Of a DNA stretch of 54,439 nucleotides, positions 1,649 through 14,183 are shown one piece after another; within the stretch, counting starts at the first letter, position 1, and each line of letters opens with the position of its first letter. The position numbers and the translations under genes are program-made. Under the pieces are notes generated by a model. The model was not told where the DNA came from, searched no databases, and saw only the letters and a list, made by a program, of their open reading frames with translations. Source of the DNA: Candidatus Gastranaerophilales bacterium (GTDB lineage Bacteria > Cyanobacteriota > Vampirovibrionia > Gastranaerophilales > Gastranaerophilaceae); the NCBI GenBank assembly GCA_944324845.1, contig CALUXX010000009.1, forward strand, positions 1 to 54,439, in the 5' to 3' direction.

Positions 1649-4162
1649 TTACCATTTAATTAACAGAGCACCATCAGCACCAGGACTGGCTGGAATATTT
1701 TTATAATCGTTACGACATCCTTCTGGTACATATTTGTTATGCGCTATTGCATAATCTGAAGCTGAATCTTTATCTACAAAGACACTGGAGCTAAGAATTT
1801 CACCTTCAAAAACAACATCGTGTCTTCCAGCCCAGCATCTGTGTTCAACACCGCCACCGGTTCCGCCTCTTCCAAATTTAATAAATCTATTAAATAAGTC
1901 AGAACTGCTAGATGAGCTGAATGCTACATTCATAAATGTTGAGAATACTCCTGTTGGTGTAGGATAATCTCCAGTGACGTTTCCTGCAACTTTGAAGAAT
2001 TTGTATTCTCCTATGTTATTGATCATACCAGCACAGTATCCAGGTTCTGTAGTTAATTTATTTCTAAGTTCTTGAGCTTCAGGTGAATTATCGCGATAGG
2101 TGTCATCTGGATTTTTCTCTGTATATTTAGTATAGAAATAACATAGGCTTTCTTTATCATGACGATCTTTATTATATGTAGGAAGAGTTTCTGCAGCTTG
2201 TTTTAACTTACCACTGCCGCCTTCTCCACCGTTAGCAACAATTATTTCACCCATTGAAGTAGCAGAACCTTTTGCTCCTTTAAGACCTGAATTATATGCA
2301 GCAGCAGAACCGCCTCTTCCGATTTTAATTGTTAAATCTACATCGGATAAAGATCTGACTATTGTTGTCTTGAATTGTCCAGGTGAACCAGCACCACCAT
2401 ATCCCAGATAATTTTGGTCATATCCATACCTAAATTCATATAGACCACCTGGTTCAGGAGTTGATAAGGCATAATGGTGTGCTAAGCAATATCCAAATTT
2501 ACCTGAACCTCTGCAATCAGATTGCGAAGATCCAATGGCGCATTGGCCATTTGTAGCTGTATGCTTTGGCGAGGTTGATACGTTGTAACAATGTCCATTA
2601 GCATCAGTAGCTGTAGTTCTACCGGCACCACCGCCACCTCGAGTAGCACTTTCTGCTTTTACTTCTACAGAGCCTACTGCCGGATTGGTAATTTTGTAAT
2701 ATGAATATGATGGAGATGCACAACTAGTACTAAGTGATCCGCCTGAGCATACAGCATAACCATCATAGGCATATGCTGCAGGTAAACAATTTTCTGCGGA
2801 AACCCCGACATCTAAATCTTCACCATCTTTAGGTGCACCAGTGTTAATTGTATCAGAGCCACTTTCAGTTACTTCTAAGCCGCCCTTAACTCTACCGGAA
2901 CTTTGGCAACTAGCTCCAGAACCGCCTGGAGCTCCAGAAGCTGAGGAATTTGACCAGTGCCAAAGTGATTCAGCCCATACGATGCACTCATCAGTTACTG
3001 TGTTTATTGGGATTTCTTCTTTGGTTTTACAATTTCTTACCCCAGATTGACAATCATCTGCGCTTTCAACAGTGAATGACCCTTCATTACATACAGTATT
3101 TGTAGTACAATTGCAGGCATAACTTTCTTTATATGTCTCAGAATGAGTTTCTGTTGGTGCACGTTCTATACAAGGACCAGGTTCAGTACATGTTTTTTCT
3201 ATTTTATGGGTTACAGTATCACATACTTGTTCATCGCTAGGGCATGTTGATGGGATTTGAGGACAACCACCTCCATGGTCTGCACCAGCACTGGCTCCAG
3301 GTGTCATACCTGTACCAGTACAATTTGAAAAACATGGTTTAGGAGGACCAGGTCTACAATTCTCCTGCGTAGTATATGTTGTTGAACAATCTTTTTCTAT
3401 GTCTGGTCCGTATTTAGTACATTCACCACCGGTTGTCCATGTTCTTGTCGCATCTCTATAACAGGTTTCACAGCTTCTAATATCGTCACAATCTTTCCAA
3501 TGACAAGTTATTGTGCCATCTTCACTTGTTGACGTACTTGTGCTTTCGTGTGGGCCTTCCCATTCTGTACAATTATATTCGTATGTTGTTTCAACTTTAT
3601 ATTCTGCACATCTTTTTTCTTCGGTAGGAGCATTGATTAGGCCAATATCACCCCCAGCTCCAGAACCAACACTATTGGCATAACCAATTAGTTCTCCTGC
3701 ATATAGTTTCCATTCCTCTATAAAAGGTCCTCTTTCACTTTCAGGAATATCCTCAAGGTCTAGCAATGTCGTTAAGCCATCAACAGTGATGCCGAATGGA
3801 GTTACTTTTGTATATTCTCCAGATGTACTTGTCCAATTACCACCGGTATATCCGGCATCACCGCCACCGCCGCCACCGCCAATGGCACTAACCTGAAAAT
3901 ATGCTGCTTTTTTAGGTGGCGTAAATACGCAGTTGTCGGTTGCTCTGTTAAACAATTCTTGTTGTTGAAATTTGCCTGCCCATTTAGCTTCTCTAAGTTG
4001 ACCATTTTCATAGTAACACATGTATGCTCCATGGTTAACTAAAGAAGGTAATCTAAAGTGTTTTTTGGTGACAACAGGCGCGATAGCTGCAATAATTAAT
4101 GATGCTACAAGTAGTATCATCATCAGTTCCACAAGGGAAAACGCTTTCAATTTCCTAATCAT
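1649..4162 (-). CDS. Giant type IV prepilin with Cys-rich insert and glycine-rich domain
   Basis: This is an 837-residue prepilin-like protein. The short leader MIRKLKA precedes FSLVEL (cleavage expected between A7 and F8, with Glu at +5 of the mature chain), then a hydrophobic helix to about residue 32. It continues with a module shared by the two upstream paralogs: H44-G45, C49, C78 with F-T-P-P after it, then A-I-G and seven glycines (95-101). Residues about 180-420 are an unusually Cys/Thr/Glu-rich insert. The remainder has glycine-rich blocks and strands such as 'LTIKIGRGG' and 'EIIVANGG', ending GADGALLIKW. That order matches glycine-rich domains of surface and phage-tail proteins. It is the last gene of a three-gene operon, 27 bases after its neighbour, and is probably a pilus-associated surface protein or adhesin. 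No known homolog is recognised for the Cys-rich part. Confidence 0.75.
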   Translation of the reverse strand: MIRKLKAFSLVELMMILLVASLIIAAIAPVVTKKHFRLPSLVNHGAYMCYYENGQLREAKWAGKFQQQELFNRATDNCVFTPPKKAAYFQVSAIGGGGGGGDAGYTGGNWTSTSGEYTKVTPFGITVDGLTTLLDLEDIPESERGPFIEEWKLYAGELIGYANSVGSGAGGDIGLINAPTEEKRCAEYKVETTYEYNCTEWEGPHESTSTSTSEDGTITCHWKDCDDIRSCETCYRDATRTWTTGGECTKYGPDIEKDCSTTYTTQENCRPGPPKPCFSNCTGTGMTPGASAGADHGGGCPQIPSTCPSDEQVCDTVTHKIEKTCTEPGPCIERAPTETHSETYKESYACNCTTNTVCNEGSFTVESADDCQSGVRNCKTKEEIPINTVTDECIVWAESLWHWSNSSASGAPGGSGASCQSSGRVKGGLEVTESGSDTINTGAPKDGEDLDVGVSAENCLPAAYAYDGYAVCSGGSLSTSCASPSYSYYKITNPAVGSVEVKAESATRGGGGAGRTTATDANGHCYNVSTSPKHTATNGQCAIGSSQSDCRGSGKFGYCLAHHYALSTPEPGGLYEFRYGYDQNYLGYGGAGSPGQFKTTIVRSLSDVDLTIKIGRGGSAAAYNSGLKGAKGSATSMGEIIVANGGEGGSGKLKQAAETLPTYNKDRHDKESLCYFYTKYTEKNPDDTYRDNSPEAQELRNKLTTEPGYCAGMINNIGEYKFFKVAGNVTGDYPTPTGVFSTFMNVAFSSSSSSDLFNRFIKFGRGGTGGGVEHRCWAGRHDVVFEGEILSSSVFVDKDSASDYAIAHNKYVPEGCRNDYKNIPASPGADGALLIKW

Positions 4163-4189
4163 ACTTTTATTCTATTCCTTTCATAATTA

Positions 4190-5311
4190 TTACCATAAGA
4201 TAAGTACACCACCAGCCGATCCATTCTGATTTTTACCCCCACCTTGACCAACGTTTGCGTCTTTGATTTTAGAGGTATATTGCAGACTTTCTATAATTCT
4301 ATGTAAGTTTGATGGATTTGGGTCATCACCTTCTGCGGTTGTATTCATTAATAGTTCCATTGTGTACATTGATGGAGCGTATATATCATATACATTTGGA
4401 GTCCAATCGGGTCTATTTGCTTTATATGTTGCGGTTGGATCAAGAGAAACATCATCATAGTCGCTAAACTGACTTATATCATGATATACCCAAGTATTTG
4501 CATTTTTAGGTTTTGTATAAACATTATTTACGATGAATCGCGGATTACCCATTTCTACAGTACCGTCACTTTTTTCAGATTTGTAGGTTAACTTTTGTGT
4601 TATATAAGTACCTTTTGTACGACAGTAACTAACTTCTATTTTCCCGTCAACTACTCGACAAGTTGGTGTAATCTGGCAATCAAATTGTTCTAATGTACAC
4701 CATTCAGTGATAGAACAATCTAGAATATCATTTACTGTAGTGTTTTCCAGGCTTGACACAGCTTTACCGCCATTTGCAGTTATCATAACATCATTATCTT
4801 GATTCTTTACTAAGGTAGTTTCGCCATTTTCAGCCGCGTTTGCACCTGTTTCCCGTTTCCCACCTTGTCCAGGTAGTATATAGTATTTTCTTTCGATTGA
4901 TGCGTAGAATGTTGATACAAACTGACCTTCACTTGCACCACCTTTTGGACTTCCACCAGCTCCACCACCTACAGCATCTATAATCAAATATTTTGCATAT
5001 GAAGGTGGTACAAATTCGCATACTTTTTTCATTTCTATTGAGCCATCTTCTTTCTCAAATCCAATTTCTTTAGTTGCTAATTTGCGCCCAGTTGTACTTC
5101 CTTCTGTATACATTTGTTGATATAATTTCCCGTTAGAATCGTAGTAGCATTCAAATCTACCATGTGCTTCTGATGCTACTTTTTCTTTTGGTCTATGAGC
5201 AACTGTGTTAGCCATAAGTGCAACAAATATTGCAACAATAAGCATTACAACAAATGCTTCAAATAAAGAAAATCCTCTTTTTAATTTATTATTCATTTTT
5301 ATTATTACCAT
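4190..5311 (-). CDS. Type IV prepilin-like protein with glycine-rich domain
   Basis: This 373-residue protein is a paralog of both flanking genes. The prepilin signal is KRG/FSLFEAF (cleavage after G13), then one hydrophobic helix. The shared module follows: H50-G51, C55, C98 with 'EFVPP', and A-V-G-G-G-A-G-G at 113-120. Further on are glycine-rich strands ('YYILPGQGG', 'VMITANGG') and the C-terminal signature GGVLILW. The start is ambiguous: the ATG at 5311 overlaps the upstream stop by 7 bases (translational coupling), while a second ATG at 5296 gives the usual 8-residue leader MNNKLKRG. Neither has a strong ribosome-binding site. It is probably a minor pilin or pseudopilin exported and cleaved by a prepilin peptidase encoded elsewhere. 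Confidence 0.75.
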   Translation of the reverse strand: MVIIKMNNKLKRGFSLFEAFVVMLIVAIFVALMANTVAHRPKEKVASEAHGRFECYYDSNGKLYQQMYTEGSTTGRKLATKEIGFEKEDGSIEMKKVCEFVPPSYAKYLIIDAVGGGAGGSPKGGASEGQFVSTFYASIERKYYILPGQGGKRETGANAAENGETTLVKNQDNDVMITANGGKAVSSLENTTVNDILDCSITEWCTLEQFDCQITPTCRVVDGKIEVSYCRTKGTYITQKLTYKSEKSDGTVEMGNPRFIVNNVYTKPKNANTWVYHDISQFSDYDDVSLDPTATYKANRPDWTPNVYDIYAPSMYTMELLMNTTAEGDDPNPSNLHRIIESLQYTSKIKDANVGQGGGKNQNGSAGGVLILW

Positions 5312-6978
5312 AAGATTACAACAGCTCCATCACTACCGCCACTTGCAGGGCATTTCATTTGTTTCTCGTTTGTACCATTTGTATAATTGGTTGATTCTTT
5401 TGAACGAGATTTTGGCTCCAATCCATTAGAGCATATGCTACTCCCTTTTTTAGTACATTTATAGACTTTTCCATTGGATATTTGCGTATAACAGTATATT
5501 TTCATCAAGCTTGTATCAAAATTACAATTATAAAATTTTGCATTTGTCGGATTATAAGCAGTTGGGGCGTTTTTGATATCGACATTTGTATATGTGAAAC
5601 TATTATTAGCAGCATTGTATATATAATCTATTACTACTGTAAATTTTTTCCAATCTGCCTCAGGACCTGGATCAGCTACAGAATTTATATTCGATATCGC
5701 TGCTGAAGGTACCTTCCCAATAGCACAAGTATATGTTAGTGTTGTATAGTCTGATGTTAGCCAATCGCAGAACCCCTCTCTTTTTACAATTATAGGTGTT
5801 GATGAATCTATTGTTTTTAATTCACAGTTTGGTTCTGTTGAAAAATTACTCCGTGTAAAGAAGGCTTCTTTTATTTTGTCTGTAATATTTTTCCAATCTG
5901 ACTCGATACGTCTATCATTGAAGCCTATTCCGTTATTATCATCATATTCATAATAAACTTGCCCATCTGTTTCTTTCGCATATTGAGTTTCTCCGCTACC
6001 TGAATCTCCAGCATTGCTAGGTACTTTTGTTTGTACCATATCATATTTTTCAACACTTTCAATAACATCATTAAAGCCAGATTTTTTACCTGCAATGGAC
6101 GCCTTTGAGGATATCTCAAAATCTGTTGATGGTCCACCTACTAGGGAATACGAAATTCTACTGTCAATGTCTCCATTGCCACCCTTGCCACCTTTAGCGA
6201 CTAAACCCTCAATAGGAGCTTCTCCATCATATATGTACATTATTTTGGTATCTTCACCATCACCACCTGAGCCATTGTTTGCTTTTGATATTTCTCCACC
6301 TTTACCAGGATATAATCTTAAAGTAACATTGCCTGGCAATTGGGGTAGAAATGTGGATACTATGTTTCCTGCACTTCCGCTAGAACGATATCGCAATATT
6401 TGTTTTGTATCTACAGAGCCTACATCAAATCGAGACTTTCCATCCCAAGGAATGGATGATTTAGGTAAAGTTACTTTGTCAACCCATGTTGCCCAATTAG
6501 GCCAAGGCATAGGGTTTGAAGTCATTAAATATGATATTGCTTGAACGTAGGGCTGCTTATCTTCTAAATCTGACACATTTACAGTGTCGATTGTTCCATC
6601 CCCATTGTCGATTTCTCTTGTGTATACAATTGCTCCAGCACCACCTCCGCCGACTGCGTGCATGATGAAATATATAGAGTTAGATGTCGGTTTAAATTCA
6701 CAATATGTTGCACTCGCCCCAAGAGGTGTTTCTATTTCTCGACCATTTTCTTCGGCTGTATATGACCATAATTCTTTTTTGCCTGTTGTTTCATTAACCT
6801 TCCAGTAACATTCATATCTTCCGTGAGCTTTTCTTGTGTCTTTTATCTTAAATACTTTTTTAGTTACTGGCGGTAATGCCAATATGATAAGCATTATTAC
6901 TGACATTACAACAAGTACTTCTGCTAAAGTATATGCGGTATTTTTTTTGTTTTTGTAATTACAGAAACTTCCAAACAT
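5305..6978 (-). CDS. Type IV prepilin-like protein with glycine-rich domain, first gene of operon
   Basis: A 557-residue prepilin-like protein. The leader is longer than in its paralogs, with the class III-type motif NTA/YTLAEVLVVM (cleavage after A15) and a hydrophobic helix to about residue 38. The shared module is present: H52-G53, C57, C93 followed by 'EFKP', and A-V-G-G-G-G at 108-113. Glycine blocks with strand phrases such as 'VTLRLYPGKGG' and 'EGLVAKGGKGG' follow, and the chain ends GAVVILW. GAGG lies 7 bases before the ATG. It heads the minus-strand operon, with a promoter candidate at 7064-7092 and a roughly 80-base leader containing a small AACCG/CGGTT hairpin (7002-7015). It is probably a pilus-tip or surface fibre component; function unproven. 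Confidence 0.75.
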   Translation of the reverse strand: MFGSFCNYKNKKNTAYTLAEVLVVMSVIMLIILALPPVTKKVFKIKDTRKAHGRYECYWKVNETTGKKELWSYTAEENGREIETPLGASATYCEFKPTSNSIYFIMHAVGGGGAGAIVYTREIDNGDGTIDTVNVSDLEDKQPYVQAISYLMTSNPMPWPNWATWVDKVTLPKSSIPWDGKSRFDVGSVDTKQILRYRSSGSAGNIVSTFLPQLPGNVTLRLYPGKGGEISKANNGSGGDGEDTKIMYIYDGEAPIEGLVAKGGKGGNGDIDSRISYSLVGGPSTDFEISSKASIAGKKSGFNDVIESVEKYDMVQTKVPSNAGDSGSGETQYAKETDGQVYYEYDDNNGIGFNDRRIESDWKNITDKIKEAFFTRSNFSTEPNCELKTIDSSTPIIVKREGFCDWLTSDYTTLTYTCAIGKVPSAAISNINSVADPGPEADWKKFTVVIDYIYNAANNSFTYTNVDIKNAPTAYNPTNAKFYNCNFDTSLMKIYCYTQISNGKVYKCTKKGSSICSNGLEPKSRSKESTNYTNGTNEKQMKCPASGGSDGAVVILW

Positions 6979-7218: not shown

Positions 7219-8625
7219 ATGATGAATAGCAGAAGTAATAAATGGGCAATGACTTTAGCTGAAATGCTCATGTGTATTTGTATTATGGGTGTTATTATAG
7301 CGATTACATTACCACTACTTAGAAATGTTATGCCAACCAAAGAAGATTCTTTTAGAAAAAAAACAAATTATCTTGTAGAACAAGTCGTTTCTCAATTATA
7401 TGGTGATGAGATTATGTACCCTAAGAAAAGTGATTTCTATTCTCAAGGTTTCCAAAATACTGAAAAAGTTACTATAAACGGTGTTGAATATGAAGGCGAT
7501 GATAAATTTTGTAAGCTTTTTGCAAGTAAGTTTGAGATTTCCTCTGAATCAGGCGCACTTGTTTGCGAAAATGAAATTGCTGAAACATCGACAACTCTTG
7601 CACGTGGAAAACGATCTTTTAGGGCTAAAGATGGTGTAGATTGGTATCTACCTGTTACTAATTTCCAAAATGGTGCTGCAGAGATTATGGTGGATGTTAA
7701 TGGTGATGAACTACCAAATTGCTTGGATGGGGCTACTGATTGTAGTAAACCAGACAGGTTTTTATATTATGTTAAAGCTGATGGTGGTATTACTTATGAC
7801 AAGCCTGAAAATGTTGTTAAAAATAAGTTTAAAATTACTGTGAATGTTTCTACTGTTGGGTGTGGAGGCGATGATGAGAATGAATGTCCTGAGGGGACTG
7901 ATGGTGGATCATATAAGCTTGCAACATTATCGAATTCCGGAGTTGTTGGTTCTTGGTCTCCTGAAAAGACTGGAACGTCCAGTATAAATAATTTGGATAG
8001 TAATACTCGTTATATAATCAAGGCAAATCCTAAATCTGGGTATTATGTTGACTGGACTTTTGATCCGACACCAAATGTCACTGCTCCGGCTAAAAGAGTT
8101 AAAGTATATAATGCTGATCTTAAAGTAGATTTGAAGTTTCGTAAGAAATCAGAGTATTGTATAATCGTTGATACTCCATATTGTGCGGAAGATGATCCAA
8201 ATGATTGTATAACAGCTAAATTGACATCTGGTTGTGGGTATAAAGAGTACGCTAACAAACAAGGTGATTATAAGTTAGAAGATGGTGCCTTTATATATCT
8301 TGGTAGAGGTTCTGATGGTGCTAAGTACAGATTTGAATGCGAAGGTATTTTAGATGCTTATGGTAATGAAATTCCAAGCCATGATTATGACGTGTCTATA
8401 GAAGGTCATCCCGTAAGAAATGCGGATGGTATTATCTCTCAGGATAAATCATATAATGCTGTATATGTATGTGGATTAAATACTGGTGATTATAAACTTG
8501 TAGTTACTCCTGAGGCTGGGTATAAAGTTACTCCTGTTTCTGTGGAACATCCAGAAGGTCGTTATGAACAGGATGTTAGACTTGGGACTGAAGATTTGTC
8601 TTTTGAAGTTAATTTATCAAGATAG
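7219..8625 (+). CDS. Type IV prepilin-like protein with beta-repeat ectodomain
   Basis: This is a 468-residue protein with the prepilin motif KWA/MTLAEML (cleavage after A11) and a hydrophobic helix to about residue 35. The next 150 residues resemble the major/minor pilin body common in gut cyanobacterial relatives, with a 'VDVNGDELPN' phrase followed by 'DRFLYYVKADGG' near residues 155-190. From about 205 the chain changes to extended beta-type sequence with paired cysteines and two similar units ('SGYYVDWTF', 'AGYKVTPVSV'), reminiscent of InlB-B or BACON-type surface repeats. It lacks the glycine-rich domain of the divergent paralogs. GAGGAG lies 8 bases before the ATG; a second in-frame ATG follows directly. 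Likely a surface-exposed pilin or adhesin. Confidence 0.75.
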   Translation: MMNSRSNKWAMTLAEMLMCICIMGVIIAITLPLLRNVMPTKEDSFRKKTNYLVEQVVSQLYGDEIMYPKKSDFYSQGFQNTEKVTINGVEYEGDDKFCKLFASKFEISSESGALVCENEIAETSTTLARGKRSFRAKDGVDWYLPVTNFQNGAAEIMVDVNGDELPNCLDGATDCSKPDRFLYYVKADGGITYDKPENVVKNKFKITVNVSTVGCGGDDENECPEGTDGGSYKLATLSNSGVVGSWSPEKTGTSSINNLDSNTRYIIKANPKSGYYVDWTFDPTPNVTAPAKRVKVYNADLKVDLKFRKKSEYCIIVDTPYCAEDDPNDCITAKLTSGCGYKEYANKQGDYKLEDGAFIYLGRGSDGAKYRFECEGILDAYGNEIPSHDYDVSIEGHPVRNADGIISQDKSYNAVYVCGLNTGDYKLVVTPEAGYKVTPVSVEHPEGRYEQDVRLGTEDLSFEVNLSR

Positions 8626-8678: not shown

Positions 8679-11600
8679 TTATTCGTAAATTTTCATTCTG
8701 ATATTTTCTTTTCCATTATTTATTGCTTCTTTTACTTTACTACCGCCGACTGAGTCACAATAGGTTTCTTCTGAGACTGTTCCAAGTATTTTCATTTGTT
8801 CCACATTTACAGATTTTAATCTTGATTCGTCAATATGGTTGTAGTTCGGTCCTATCATAATTTGGGCATCTTCTCTACCCATTTCTTTGCAAATTCGTTT
8901 ACCAAATTTTATCAGTTCATCGGTTACTATCGGGTTAGAACCAAGTTTTCCGTTTGCTTCAAAACTGTCTATTACAAATGTTAGTTTACCGTCCATATCG
9001 GCAAAGAAACACATTGAATTTCCATATGAGTTTCCATATTTATCTACAAGTTCTATACCTCTATTGAAGTTATTTAGAAGATGCATTGGCGCTGAGTATC
9101 CTGCAAAACTTGAATCTACACTGTTGCAGCAGCCAACGTGGTTGCCGAAGAAGATGTTTCTTCCGATATTATTATCGTCTGATAATCTTAGGTATATGTC
9201 ATTAACTGTTTTGGCACCTCTTATTTCTTTAATGTGGTTTGCTATATCTTTAAGGTGGTCTGTAAATGCTGCTATACCTGTTTTTTCATCTTCGGTTAAT
9301 TGACAATTTGGGTTGTTGATTGATTGCCAATACTCGTTTTGAGTAATATAGTTTGTTACAGTTTCTGTAAATTTTTCTAAATCATTGTTTTTAATTTGTT
9401 CTCCATTTTTGTATAGATTATTATTGAAAATTGTGTAACCTTGTGCTGTCAAATTTTTCATTAATTTTTCTGTTTCTTCAGGTTTGATTTTTTGGAAAAA
9501 TTCATCTTGGAATATATTTATTAAATTGTATGTTGTATTTTTGTATTCTGTATCAGGATCTGCTTCTACTGTGAAGGTATTGCTTTTTAGATTTGGGTCA
9601 AATGTGTTCCATTTGCCAAAATTTAAACCATGTTCCCTGAATTGTCTTGCTGTATCTTGATTTGCTTTTATTTGTTCAATAAGACCTAAATTTTGATATT
9701 CTTCATATTCCGCTGTTCCTGGGGTTGGCATTTCTAATCGGTTTTGGGTTAGTGGTCTTTCAGGGTGGATTTTTTGCAGTTCAATAAGTCGTCTGAAGTT
9801 TGTTTTAAAATCTTCTGTTGTTGAAAATAGTTTATCAAAATATTTTGAATCGAAATGAATTGTCTTTATTAAATCATCATTGATTTCTATTTTATAGTGT
9901 TGGTACATTGCTGTTAACATTGAGCTGTTAAATTCTGCGTCTGCATTTGGGATATTTACGTATGATACTACCATTCTTTTTAAATTTTCTAATGGCTTTG
10001 GAAATATTTTAGGTGTGGTGTATTTTTCAGGATGTGATTTCATATCCGCTTTTTTAATTTTGTATTCATCAATGTATTTTAATTTTTTCTCAAGCGGAGT
10101 TTGTGGATTGGTTAGCATTTGTTGTGCGAAAACATCCATTTGTGCCATTTGTTCTTCTATTGGTTTTGGGGTGTCTATTTGTTTATCTAGACGTGCTTGT
10201 TGCAAATATTCTCTTAGAATATTTTTTGTGTTTTGTGGAGCGTTTATTTCTCGGATAAATTTTTCAACACATGTTTCATAATCTGTTGTTTTATCTGTGA
10301 AAATTTTGTTTGCTAAATCGATTTGTTCTTTTGTCATTTCAGGTGAATGAATTAAATGCGTAAGTGTTCTTAGTGCATTTTCATCAACTTTTCCAGCTAA
10401 GGAGCCTAGTATGCGTAATCTTTTTACTTTGATTTCAGGTGACGGAAGCGTATCTAATCTTGTTTTTAAGTCTTCTATAAATGCATCAGAACATTCTCTT
10501 TTTAGTCTTGTACATTGATTTACAAAATTGATATAATTATCTATTTTTGCAGTTACAACATTATTCATTACGTCTTCGCCGAATAGTTCTGTTATTTCTT
10601 TTATGGATGAGGCATTATCTGCTATTCTTTTGACAACGTATGTGTCATCATGAGTTTGACCTTTTAACACTTCATGTTTTGAGCATAATTTTAATAGTTC
10701 ATTGTATTTCTCTTCATTGAATTTTTCATCTTTGTAACAAGATGTTAGGAATTGTATAATTCCTTTGTCATCAAAATTTTTGTAATGAAGTTTTGAAACT
10801 TTTTCGTATGCATTTGGATAGTATTTATTTGTGTGTTTATATTTGCAAGCATATAAAATTCCTGCAATATTATCTTTTTCTATACCTAATTCTTCAAGTT
10901 TGGCAATGTTGTTGTATATGTCCATGTTGAAAATTTCAGGTTCTTTTTCGTTGTCTGTTTTTTCATGGCATACATTTATTAGATCTGATATATTATTTGG
11001 TGAGAATTTCCGATCTTGAAGGTTAAGCGCAAGTTTGAATATTCGATCTTGAAATTTGCCGTTGATATGGCATTGTTTAATTACTTCATAAGAAAGTCCT
11101 CTTTTAATTGCTTGTTTTAGTCTTTCATATGCTATCGGGTCTTTCTTTACAATTGAGATTGCAGTTGTTGGTGTTTTTTCTCCAAGGTTGTATAATTCAA
11201 TACATTGTTCTAATGTTGTTGTATCAATTTCGCCATTTTCTGAGATACAATAATTTGCAATATTGCCGGCATTTTGAAGGTCTATTCCTTGAGCTAGCAG
11301 TTCTTTAATTTTTCCATATCTGGTTTGTGAAAAATGGCAATCTTGCTCATATTTATTAACTTGGCATTGGTAGAGTATATCTAAAACATCTCGTCCATCG
11401 TAGCCTTTGTCAATAAGTTCTATTGCTGCGTTATATGCTTGAAAATCAAATTTGTAGTCGTTGAATGAGTTATAACTTCTGCAAGCTTCCATTATATATT
11501 GTTCAGGATGACCGCAATACATAGAGTCATAATCAGAATTACGTTTGGTAAATTTGATGTTTTTATCTTCTAATTTTAGATAAGCATCTATTAGTCTTTC

Positions 11601-14045
11601 TGATGGGATGAATTTAGATTTGTTTTTTCCAAAAGTTTTGCGTTCAAATATAAGTTCCATTGGGACTTTTGTGGTGGTACATTTTTCGTGTAAATCTATA
11701 TCAAATGTACGGTTATATTTATCTGTGGTTTTGAAAAAATCCATTGAAGATGGTTTTGTAGATATATAAGAATCATCTATTCGAACATAACTTTTTAGTA
11801 ATCGTTCAAGGTTGTTTGGTCTGAATATTTCTTGTCCGTTTACCATATCGATTGATGGTTTTATATAGTTTACAAAATGTTTAATATTATAAGAATCTTG
11901 CGATTTATAGGGTTCAATTATTTTGTTATAAATTTCGTCACTAAATTCTTTTTTTTCTAATTCTCCTGTATATGGGTTAATATTTGAAAGTTTGCAGGCT
12001 TCAATACATTCAGCGATATGTTCTTCTTCTACTCCGTATTGTTTTAGTTGAAATGCTTTTTCTAATAGTTCAGGATTATATTTGTAGCTTGAATAAGATT
12101 GTTTTTTCTCTTTGCATGCTTCAAGTATTTCTGCTGCAGCTTCGGGATTTTCAAATACCGGTGGTTTGGCACTTTGTAGTTCTATAAATTTATTCAAAAC
12201 TTCATCATCAAAAAGTACTATTGTCTGACTTTTTAAATCATTTGTTGGTGTTTTTATATACCTTGTTGCATTATACGTGCAGGCTTTGAATAATTTAGCA
12301 TTAATTTTTTTCTGGGTTTTATATTCTTGCTTCCATGTGATGTCTGAAATCGCCTTGTTATTCCAGACTTTTTTCCCATAATCTAACAATGCTTTTGTAT
12401 CACAACCTAGTTTATTTGCATCAATTATTTCTGAGGCTGAATAAAAAACTCTATCTGAAAAATTGTGTTGCCCAAGAATTGCTTTTGTAAGTCCATTAAA
12501 TAGTTCAATGTCAAATTTCTCATCACCGTTGTCATCTTTTACTTTAGAGAGTATTAAAATGTCAAAAAGGGAATATCCTTCAACTTCAGGTAATTGAGGT
12601 AACGCTTTTTGAACTGTGCTGATTGCTTGGTCACTAAAAGTTTTGGAATTATCTTGTTTGTGTAGAAGACAAGCACTTATTACATCTTCTATATAACTAT
12701 TACCGATATATTTCCTTAGTGCTATTGCTAAATCTAATCCCTTAGTTGTGATACAATTTGTACCATCGGTGTATTCTTCTTTTGATTTGGTAAAAATCTT
12801 TGCATAATTTGAAAAATGAATTTTATTCTGTACAAAAAGATCTATATATGGTAAAAGATCTTTTCTTACTTTGCAAATATTGCCGGAGGAGTCTCTGTCA
12901 CATAAACTATTTAGCGTATCATTGTATTGGTAGGTTGAAAAACCATACGGGAATATTTCTTTATCTTCACTATATTTTTGTATAGTTTGTATTAGATATT
13001 TCCCGCATTCAAATAAATCATCATTAAAAATTTGATATTTGTTAGATGGTTCTTTTATAATACAAGGATTTAGGTAATTCTTAATTTCATTTTCAGCAAT
13101 ACCCATTTCGAGTAATTCATTTTTTGCTTGTTCTATTTTTTCATTTAATAGAATTTCAGCTTGTTCTTCTTCCAGTTGGTTTGCTGTTTCAATGTTTTCT
13201 TGTTGCTCAGGTTCTGTCGTTGTAATTGGAACTTCTGGGGTTTGAATTACATTGTTGTTTTCAACAGGTGTTTCTTCTTCCTGAATAGTTGTTGTTGGTT
13301 CTTCTATTTGATTTTCTGCTTGGGTTTCAGATTGAACGATTTCTTGTTGTGGTTCTGAAATTTCTGTATTGGATTGGTTTTCTTCTACAGGTCGTTCCAT
13401 ATAGTAGGCGTCTGTGCCGTTTGCATAATAATTATTCAGTGTTTCTTTTATTGTGAAACCTAAATTTTGATACATTCTAACAAGATTTCTGTTGCTTGCA
13501 TCTACGTGTAAAGATAATGTGTTTGCTCCATTTTCTGTTGCATAATCAAGAATCTTCTCCCAAGCGTATTTTATTGTGTAGTAACCTTTTCTTGTGTTTC
13601 GGTATTCAGGTTTTAAACCAATAGAATCTATATACAAATCCCCGTTGTTAATCGGTTCAAGTTGATAGTAGCCTAAAATAGTGTTGTGATTATTTTCATC
13701 TCGCACAACGTATGTTGATAATTGATTGTTTTGGACAATATTTCGAAATTCTTCATAACTTTCGTAGGGATCTTGGTCTGCAAAAATTTGTTTATCAAGT
13801 TCGTAAACTTCTCGCATATCATTTTCGGAGTCGTTTACTTTTTCAGATTTTATCGCAATAGGTGTGTGGTTTACTATGTATTGTCTGTAAACTTCAGGAC
13901 CTACGTGAATTTGAACTTCTTGAATAGGGTTTTGAACATTTTCATTTGTTTGATTTTCCCCTTGTTGCTGTCTTGTCGGACGTATCGTTTGTACTGGGTA
14001 AACATTTGGGGTAATGTTATTTCTTCTGTTTCCTTCTATCGGCAT
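8679..14045 (-). CDS. Giant protein: GNAT acetyltransferase domain, helical repeats, unknown C-terminal domain
   Basis: About 1788 residues. The start is set at the ATG at 14043-14045 (MPIEGNRRNN), which has GGAG 6 bases upstream; an earlier in-frame ATG at 14069 lacks one. Residues about 65-218 look like a GNAT N-acetyltransferase: strand 'LYIDSIGLKPEYR', an acetyl-CoA loop region around R149-G154, and 'NRNLVRMYQNLGFTI' at 185-199. A Gln/Glu/Thr-rich linker follows (220-300). Then come many roughly 40-50-residue helical units ending in phrases such as 'IAECIEACK', 'VLDILYQCQ', 'IAGILYACK' and 'ISDLINVCH'. The last 200 residues hold a separate domain with 'GNHVGCCNSVDSS' and 'LTFVIDSFEANG'. 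There is no signal peptide. The C-terminal domain could be a second acetyltransferase-like fold, but this is speculative. An effector-like or scaffold role is possible; substrate unknown. Confidence 0.7.
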   Translation of the reverse strand: MPIEGNRRNNITPNVYPVQTIRPTRQQQGENQTNENVQNPIQEVQIHVGPEVYRQYIVNHTPIAIKSEKVNDSENDMREVYELDKQIFADQDPYESYEEFRNIVQNNQLSTYVVRDENNHNTILGYYQLEPINNGDLYIDSIGLKPEYRNTRKGYYTIKYAWEKILDYATENGANTLSLHVDASNRNLVRMYQNLGFTIKETLNNYYANGTDAYYMERPVEENQSNTEISEPQQEIVQSETQAENQIEEPTTTIQEEETPVENNNVIQTPEVPITTTEPEQQENIETANQLEEEQAEILLNEKIEQAKNELLEMGIAENEIKNYLNPCIIKEPSNKYQIFNDDLFECGKYLIQTIQKYSEDKEIFPYGFSTYQYNDTLNSLCDRDSSGNICKVRKDLLPYIDLFVQNKIHFSNYAKIFTKSKEEYTDGTNCITTKGLDLAIALRKYIGNSYIEDVISACLLHKQDNSKTFSDQAISTVQKALPQLPEVEGYSLFDILILSKVKDDNGDEKFDIELFNGLTKAILGQHNFSDRVFYSASEIIDANKLGCDTKALLDYGKKVWNNKAISDITWKQEYKTQKKINAKLFKACTYNATRYIKTPTNDLKSQTIVLFDDEVLNKFIELQSAKPPVFENPEAAAEILEACKEKKQSYSSYKYNPELLEKAFQLKQYGVEEEHIAECIEACKLSNINPYTGELEKKEFSDEIYNKIIEPYKSQDSYNIKHFVNYIKPSIDMVNGQEIFRPNNLERLLKSYVRIDDSYISTKPSSMDFFKTTDKYNRTFDIDLHEKCTTTKVPMELIFERKTFGKNKSKFIPSERLIDAYLKLEDKNIKFTKRNSDYDSMYCGHPEQYIMEACRSYNSFNDYKFDFQAYNAAIELIDKGYDGRDVLDILYQCQVNKYEQDCHFSQTRYGKIKELLAQGIDLQNAGNIANYCISENGEIDTTTLEQCIELYNLGEKTPTTAISIVKKDPIAYERLKQAIKRGLSYEVIKQCHINGKFQDRIFKLALNLQDRKFSPNNISDLINVCHEKTDNEKEPEIFNMDIYNNIAKLEELGIEKDNIAGILYACKYKHTNKYYPNAYEKVSKLHYKNFDDKGIIQFLTSCYKDEKFNEEKYNELLKLCSKHEVLKGQTHDDTYVVKRIADNASSIKEITELFGEDVMNNVVTAKIDNYINFVNQCTRLKRECSDAFIEDLKTRLDTLPSPEIKVKRLRILGSLAGKVDENALRTLTHLIHSPEMTKEQIDLANKIFTDKTTDYETCVEKFIREINAPQNTKNILREYLQQARLDKQIDTPKPIEEQMAQMDVFAQQMLTNPQTPLEKKLKYIDEYKIKKADMKSHPEKYTTPKIFPKPLENLKRMVVSYVNIPNADAEFNSSMLTAMYQHYKIEINDDLIKTIHFDSKYFDKLFSTTEDFKTNFRRLIELQKIHPERPLTQNRLEMPTPGTAEYEEYQNLGLIEQIKANQDTARQFREHGLNFGKWNTFDPNLKSNTFTVEADPDTEYKNTTYNLINIFQDEFFQKIKPEETEKLMKNLTAQGYTIFNNNLYKNGEQIKNNDLEKFTETVTNYITQNEYWQSINNPNCQLTEDEKTGIAAFTDHLKDIANHIKEIRGAKTVNDIYLRLSDDNNIGRNIFFGNHVGCCNSVDSSFAGYSAPMHLLNNFNRGIELVDKYGNSYGNSMCFFADMDGKLTFVIDSFEANGKLGSNPIVTDELIKFGKRICKEMGREDAQIMIGPNYNHIDESRLKSVNVEQMKILGTVSEETYCDSVGGSKVKEAINNGKENIRMKIYE

Positions 14046-14183
14046 AAAATCTCCTACAACCTTCAACACTTATGTTTTATAAACACTTATTTTTCAGGTT
14101 TTTTGCTAGTTCCGATGTTTATATGAAAAAATATTAAGTAGGAATTTATATAAAAATATTTATATTTGAATTAAAATATTTAT

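Follow-up and report, generated by a model that had tools for sequence, protein, structure and literature searches.

The window analyzed here, 54,439 nucleotides of DNA from Candidatus Gastranaerophilales bacterium, a member of a gut lineage, contains three adjacent minus-strand genes (A, B, and C; Table 1) that encode prepilins with large ectodomains predicted to resemble phage tail fibers. With a probability of about 0.6, we interpret their products as modular minor type IV pilins that show a receptor-binding domain of the phage-fiber type at the end of the pilus, most likely as a 1:1:1 heterotrimer. The analysis itself shows the leaders, the domain fold (models for A and B, profile for C), the conservation of the trio, a genomic set of pilus machinery genes, and the alternation of the trio with S74-type pilins among relatives; entry into the pilus, tip position, heterotrimer, and adhesion are inferred.

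Leaders, Shared Module, and Inserts

A preliminary description of this DNA had proposed three adjacent prepilin genes with a common module, and both proposals were confirmed. A, B, and C each have the leader and hydrophobic helix of type IV (class III signal peptide) prepilins, with Glu at position +5. The leader pattern (G/A, F/Y-S/T-x-x-E, then a hydrophobic helix) fits 118 of 121 homologues; the three exceptions (L075, L081, and L086) have the G/A-F-S-x-x-E core and lack the K/R before it. Leader-side helices are seen in the AlphaFold models of A and B. Pfam N_methyl matches the window proteins weakly but is found in 30 of 40 homologues of A and 31 of 41 homologues of B. Gene B has its first ATG within the end of gene A, an overlap also seen in several relatives, and an internal ATG at 5296 is an alternative start.

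The module HGx[YF]xC ... CxFxP ... A[VI]GGG is present in each of the three proteins, and a search of the organism's own genome found exactly three copies, those in A, B, and C (E ~1e-20 each). It is not a chance resemblance, because the two Cys residues, the His, and the first glycines show little or no variation across 40–41 homologues per gene. A C-terminal strand ending in GxxGA[VIL]xIxW is a further common feature. The leader and helix, the module, and this strand are conserved, with mean pairwise identities of 0.41–0.67, whereas the main inserts are variable (0.21–0.27) and differ in length between homologues, that of C, for example, spanning 248 to 906 residues. The inserts of A, B, and C also differ greatly from one another. 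As judged from these alignments, the arrangement fits a fixed frame with variable contact parts. The ectodomains had been described as long glycine-rich sequences; glycine-rich blocks are indeed present, but in A and B they are confined to the scaffold, and all three proteins consist in large part of insert.

Fold of the Ectodomains

AlphaFold models calculated from alignments of 41 (B) and 40 (A) homologues are ordered and confident, with mean predicted local distance difference test (pLDDT) scores of 87.7 for B and 90.5 for A. Disorder had been set beforehand as a check on the proposed ectodomain, and the proposal was not refuted by it. The models were compared with solved structures by Foldseek, followed by structural re-alignment with VIA-align. 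For both, the top VIA-align match was the tail fiber of cyanophage Pam3 (for B, Z 12.3 with 131 residues aligned at 2.6 Å; for A, Z 12.1 with 156 residues aligned at 2.9 Å), followed by the tail tip of mycobacteriophage Bxb1 (Z 9.5 for B and 10.1 for A) and the TNF-like/glycine-rich (TG) domain of ALK/LTK (Z 8.5–9.5 for B and 7.3–8.2 for A). Unrelated structures appear only at Z 3.9 (B) and 3.5 (A), a clear gap below the fiber and TG matches. The models thus predict that the ectodomains of A and B are TNF-like sandwiches with glycine-rich loops, the fold of Pam3 gp24 and the ALK TG domain. Foldseek of B against a viral library gave 58 matches at E ≤ 0.001, many of them named phage glycine-rich domain proteins; a scan of viral contigs with gene A found no relative.

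Profile-profile alignment links A with both C and B at 99.9% probability, the aligned region being the glycine scaffold or the N-terminal part. At E ≤ 0.01, Pfam Gly_rich_2 (PF21722) matches 13 of 40 homologues of A and 27 of 40 of C, and at E ≤ 0.1 it matches 7 of 41 of B. Relative to the curated cut-off of 24.3 bits, the window C protein scores below (21.5) and its homologue at locus L063 above (27.1); a PF21722 search of the organism's own genome returned nothing at E ≤ 1e-3. These profiles suggest that the ectodomain of C has the same TNF-like/glycine-rich fold. Sequence profile searches of the PDB gave weak matches to the geopilin and PilA pilin helix only, with no credible match for the ectodomain. 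The likeness to phage tail-fiber tips noted in the preliminary description is upheld by the Pam3 match and by Gly_rich_2 matches among homologues of all three proteins.

Distribution and Descent of the Trio

When 84,980 species, each represented by one genome, were scanned with a sequence pattern, 46 related loci were obtained; the pattern was strict, so that absence elsewhere is weak evidence. The named loci are from Gastranaerophilales, Melainabacteria, Scatousia, or Cyanobacteria bins, and all 46 are apparently from Gastranaerophilales. The combination of prepilin and glycine-rich domain occurs in many genomes, so the second check set beforehand, its absence from every other genome, did not refute the proposal either. 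Searched with a module profile, a set of 386 genomes from the phylum gave 64 positives, all in one family and usually with three copies each. The A-B-C order on one strand is found in 32 of the 46 loci as well as in the window; of the remaining loci, several are truncated where their contigs end, and some have C separate from the other two genes. In a maximum-likelihood tree of the leader and module, a single branch separates the full set of A sequences from the rest, and the same holds for B and for C (support 77/86, 96/81, and 99/99, respectively), although the tree was built from few columns and its inner branches are unsure. The nearest neighbors of the window sequences in this tree are likewise of Candidatus Gastranaerophilales kin. 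Because A, B, and C separate in this way, the tree indicates that they probably arose from one old triplication and have been kept together since.

Alternation with S74 Prepilins

The trio is absent from most other species of the genus, which have instead about three large prepilins ending in an S74 (endosialidase, or tail-spike, chaperone) domain. In a sample of 78 genomes of the family, 30 contained the module, 37 contained S74, none contained both, and 11 contained neither (Fisher p ~1e-12, with kinship between genomes ignored). A prepilin leader was present in 31 of 33 S74 open reading frames (ORFs) inspected; the other two lie at contig edges and have none in the visible stretch. Within a wider set of 79 genomes of relatives, two have both kinds: G028, a bin of lower completeness with 5% contamination, and G060, which belongs to another family. 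Clusters of S74-domain prepilins were located in relatives without the trio at L117-L120, L125, L128, and L131. We tentatively suggest, at somewhat less than even odds, that the pili of Gastranaerophilaceae end in a prepilin heterotrimer with interchangeable phage-tail-fiber modules, either the TNF-like/glycine-rich trio (related to Pam3 gp24 and ALK) or the S74 tail-spike type, one kind per genome.

Neighboring Genes and Other Prepilins

The features of the locus are collected in Table 1. A prepilin counterpart of the divergent plus-strand ORF adjoins the trio in close relatives too. Beyond it, at 8679-14069 on the minus strand, lies a GTG-started ORF of 1796 residues whose N-terminal part resembles a GNAT acetyltransferase (NCBIfam rimI 5e-11, below cut-off) and whose long remainder is uncharacterized. 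Elsewhere in the same genome, L121 (7856-9646) holds a divergent pair of prepilins of 330 and 217 residues, and similar pairs adjoin the trio in several relatives. At locus L146 of relative G039, a prepilin start opens a long frame rich in Cys, which continues into sequence read as N. An open frame of 26,118 codons with a prepilin start in a relative was set aside because it enters stretches read as N, making its length uninformative.

Table 1. Prepilin genes and module copies at the locus
Feature	Positions	Strand	Description
Gene A	5305-6978	-	Prepilin, 557 residues; AYTLAE leader, helix 18-39; predicted TNF-like/glycine-rich ectodomain; long insert at ~residues 331-545
Gene B	4190-5311	-	Prepilin, 373 residues; GFSLFE leader; predicted TNF-like/glycine-rich ectodomain
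Gene C	1649-4162	-	Prepilin, 837 residues; AFSLVE leader; Cys-rich insert at ~residues 102-585; Gly_rich_2-like scaffold 586-652
Shared module of gene A	6634-6825	-	HGRYEC...CEF...AVGGGG; pattern/profile match
Shared module of gene B	4952-5164	-	Pattern/profile match
Shared module of gene C	3863-4033	-	Pattern/profile match
Divergent fourth prepilin	7219-8625	+	AMTLAE leader, 468 residues; without module or Pfam match

Relation to Known Systems

The best structural match of A and B, Pam3 tail fiber gp24 (PDB 7YPX and 7YFW), is a homotrimer; its glycine-rich motifs are stacked, and their dihedrals are said to be near those of a β-sheet (PMC9608196). The gp24 trimer is built on an N-terminal helix, and the fold is predicted to be common to it and the A, B, and C ectodomains; gp24 is, however, a phage protein docked to the baseplate and assembled with the chaperone gp25, lacks a prepilin leader, and is much shorter, without large inserts. 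The likeness to ALK/LTK, seen by structural alignment at Z 7.3-9.5, concerns the fold; the TG domain is part of the ectodomain of an animal receptor tyrosine kinase.

Among pilins, the accessible text of PMC8179133 describes PilB and PilC of Streptococcus sanguinis as modular pilins that, as here, join a prepilin leader to a large functional module proposed to be exposed at the tip. These have a small globular pilin module with vWA or lectin domains, whereas A, B, and C are a trio of paralogues in which the ectodomain follows the helix and a short linker. Modular pilins as understood in that text combine a pilin module with an extra functional module; the extra module is present in A, B, and C, and of the pilin module the models show the helix alone. 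The S74 prepilins of the same family are likewise large prepilins, most members of the genus having about three, but their phage tail-spike-type C-terminal domain is unrelated to the ectodomains of the trio. In the same text, 264 architectures of modular pilins are catalogued, one of them with S74 (IPR030392), and a glycine-rich module is not named. With modular pilins already established there, the earlier suggestion of a new class of pilus-tip or surface fiber was too strong. Neither the A/B/C architecture nor the conserved trio nor the alternation with S74 pilins turned up in the searchable literature: a search combining prepilin, glycine-rich domain, and tail fiber gave no match, and one combining peptidase S74 and pilin gave unrelated proteomics work only.

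Proposed Assembly and Alternatives

The genome has ORFs for a PilB-type ATPase, one secretin, a PilC-like protein, a second, PilT-like ATPase, and a PilD-like peptidase whose Pfam score is below cut-off, together with several other prepilins. The PilY1 domain (PF05567) had no match in the 78 family genomes, although control genomes were silent too. With such machinery, the leaders of A, B, and C would be cleaved by a prepilin peptidase and the hydrophobic helix of each would enter the pilus, at the end of which the TNF-like sandwich with its stacked glycine-rich loops would be displayed as the receptor-binding part. The three proteins would assemble 1:1:1 as a heterotrimeric tip with the variable inserts facing the target, and the tip may mediate adhesion to a host or microbial surface. 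A 1:1:1 heterotrimer appears most likely because the paralogous ectodomains are predicted to share a fold that is trimeric in Pam3 gp24 and because the three genes are inherited together. Several observations weigh against this reading. The structure models are of single chains. Foldseek of B against the PDB gave no match at E ≤ 1e-3, so that the Pam3 match depends on structural re-alignment, and the fold of C is supported by profile, the three-dimensional models covering A and B. The models of A and B contain only a short helix, without a separate pilin β-sheet, a difficulty for subunit packing in the pilus. Finally, C does not always adjoin A-B (L078 and L083, and separate contigs in some genomes).

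The homotrimeric state of gp24, the very different inserts of A, B, and C, and the unlinked position of C in some genomes would also suit an arrangement in which each prepilin forms its own homotrimeric or monomeric tip, giving a cell three specificities. We consider this unlikely, since the three are nearly always found together and derive from one ancient triplication, for which a joint function fits better than interchangeable specificities. Still less probable is that A, B, and C are inner-membrane anchored or form the tip of a short type II secretion-like pseudopilus rather than belonging to an extended type IV pilus. The accessible text of PMC8179133 includes a three-component minor pseudopilin tip, GspI-GspJ-GspK, and a single secretin was found in the genome, but the second, PilT-like ATPase, the several other prepilins, and an ectodomain fold of the receptor-binding fiber type argue for a type IV pilus. 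A reading of the proteins as low-complexity surface chains rich in glycine and lacking a defined fold, which the composition and the Pfam scores of the window proteins under the cut-offs might suggest, is very improbable given the confident ordered models and the invariant Cys, Gly, and Trp positions.

If the assignment of A, B, and C as a heterotrimeric pilus tip is correct, a bacterial pilus would use the receptor-binding fold of phage tail fibers (and of ALK/LTK) as its end piece, and two unrelated versions of the tip would alternate among close relatives. The trio provides concrete candidates for the means by which a common, hardly cultured gut lineage attaches to its environment, and a case in which the sharing of tip modules between phages and pili can be tested.
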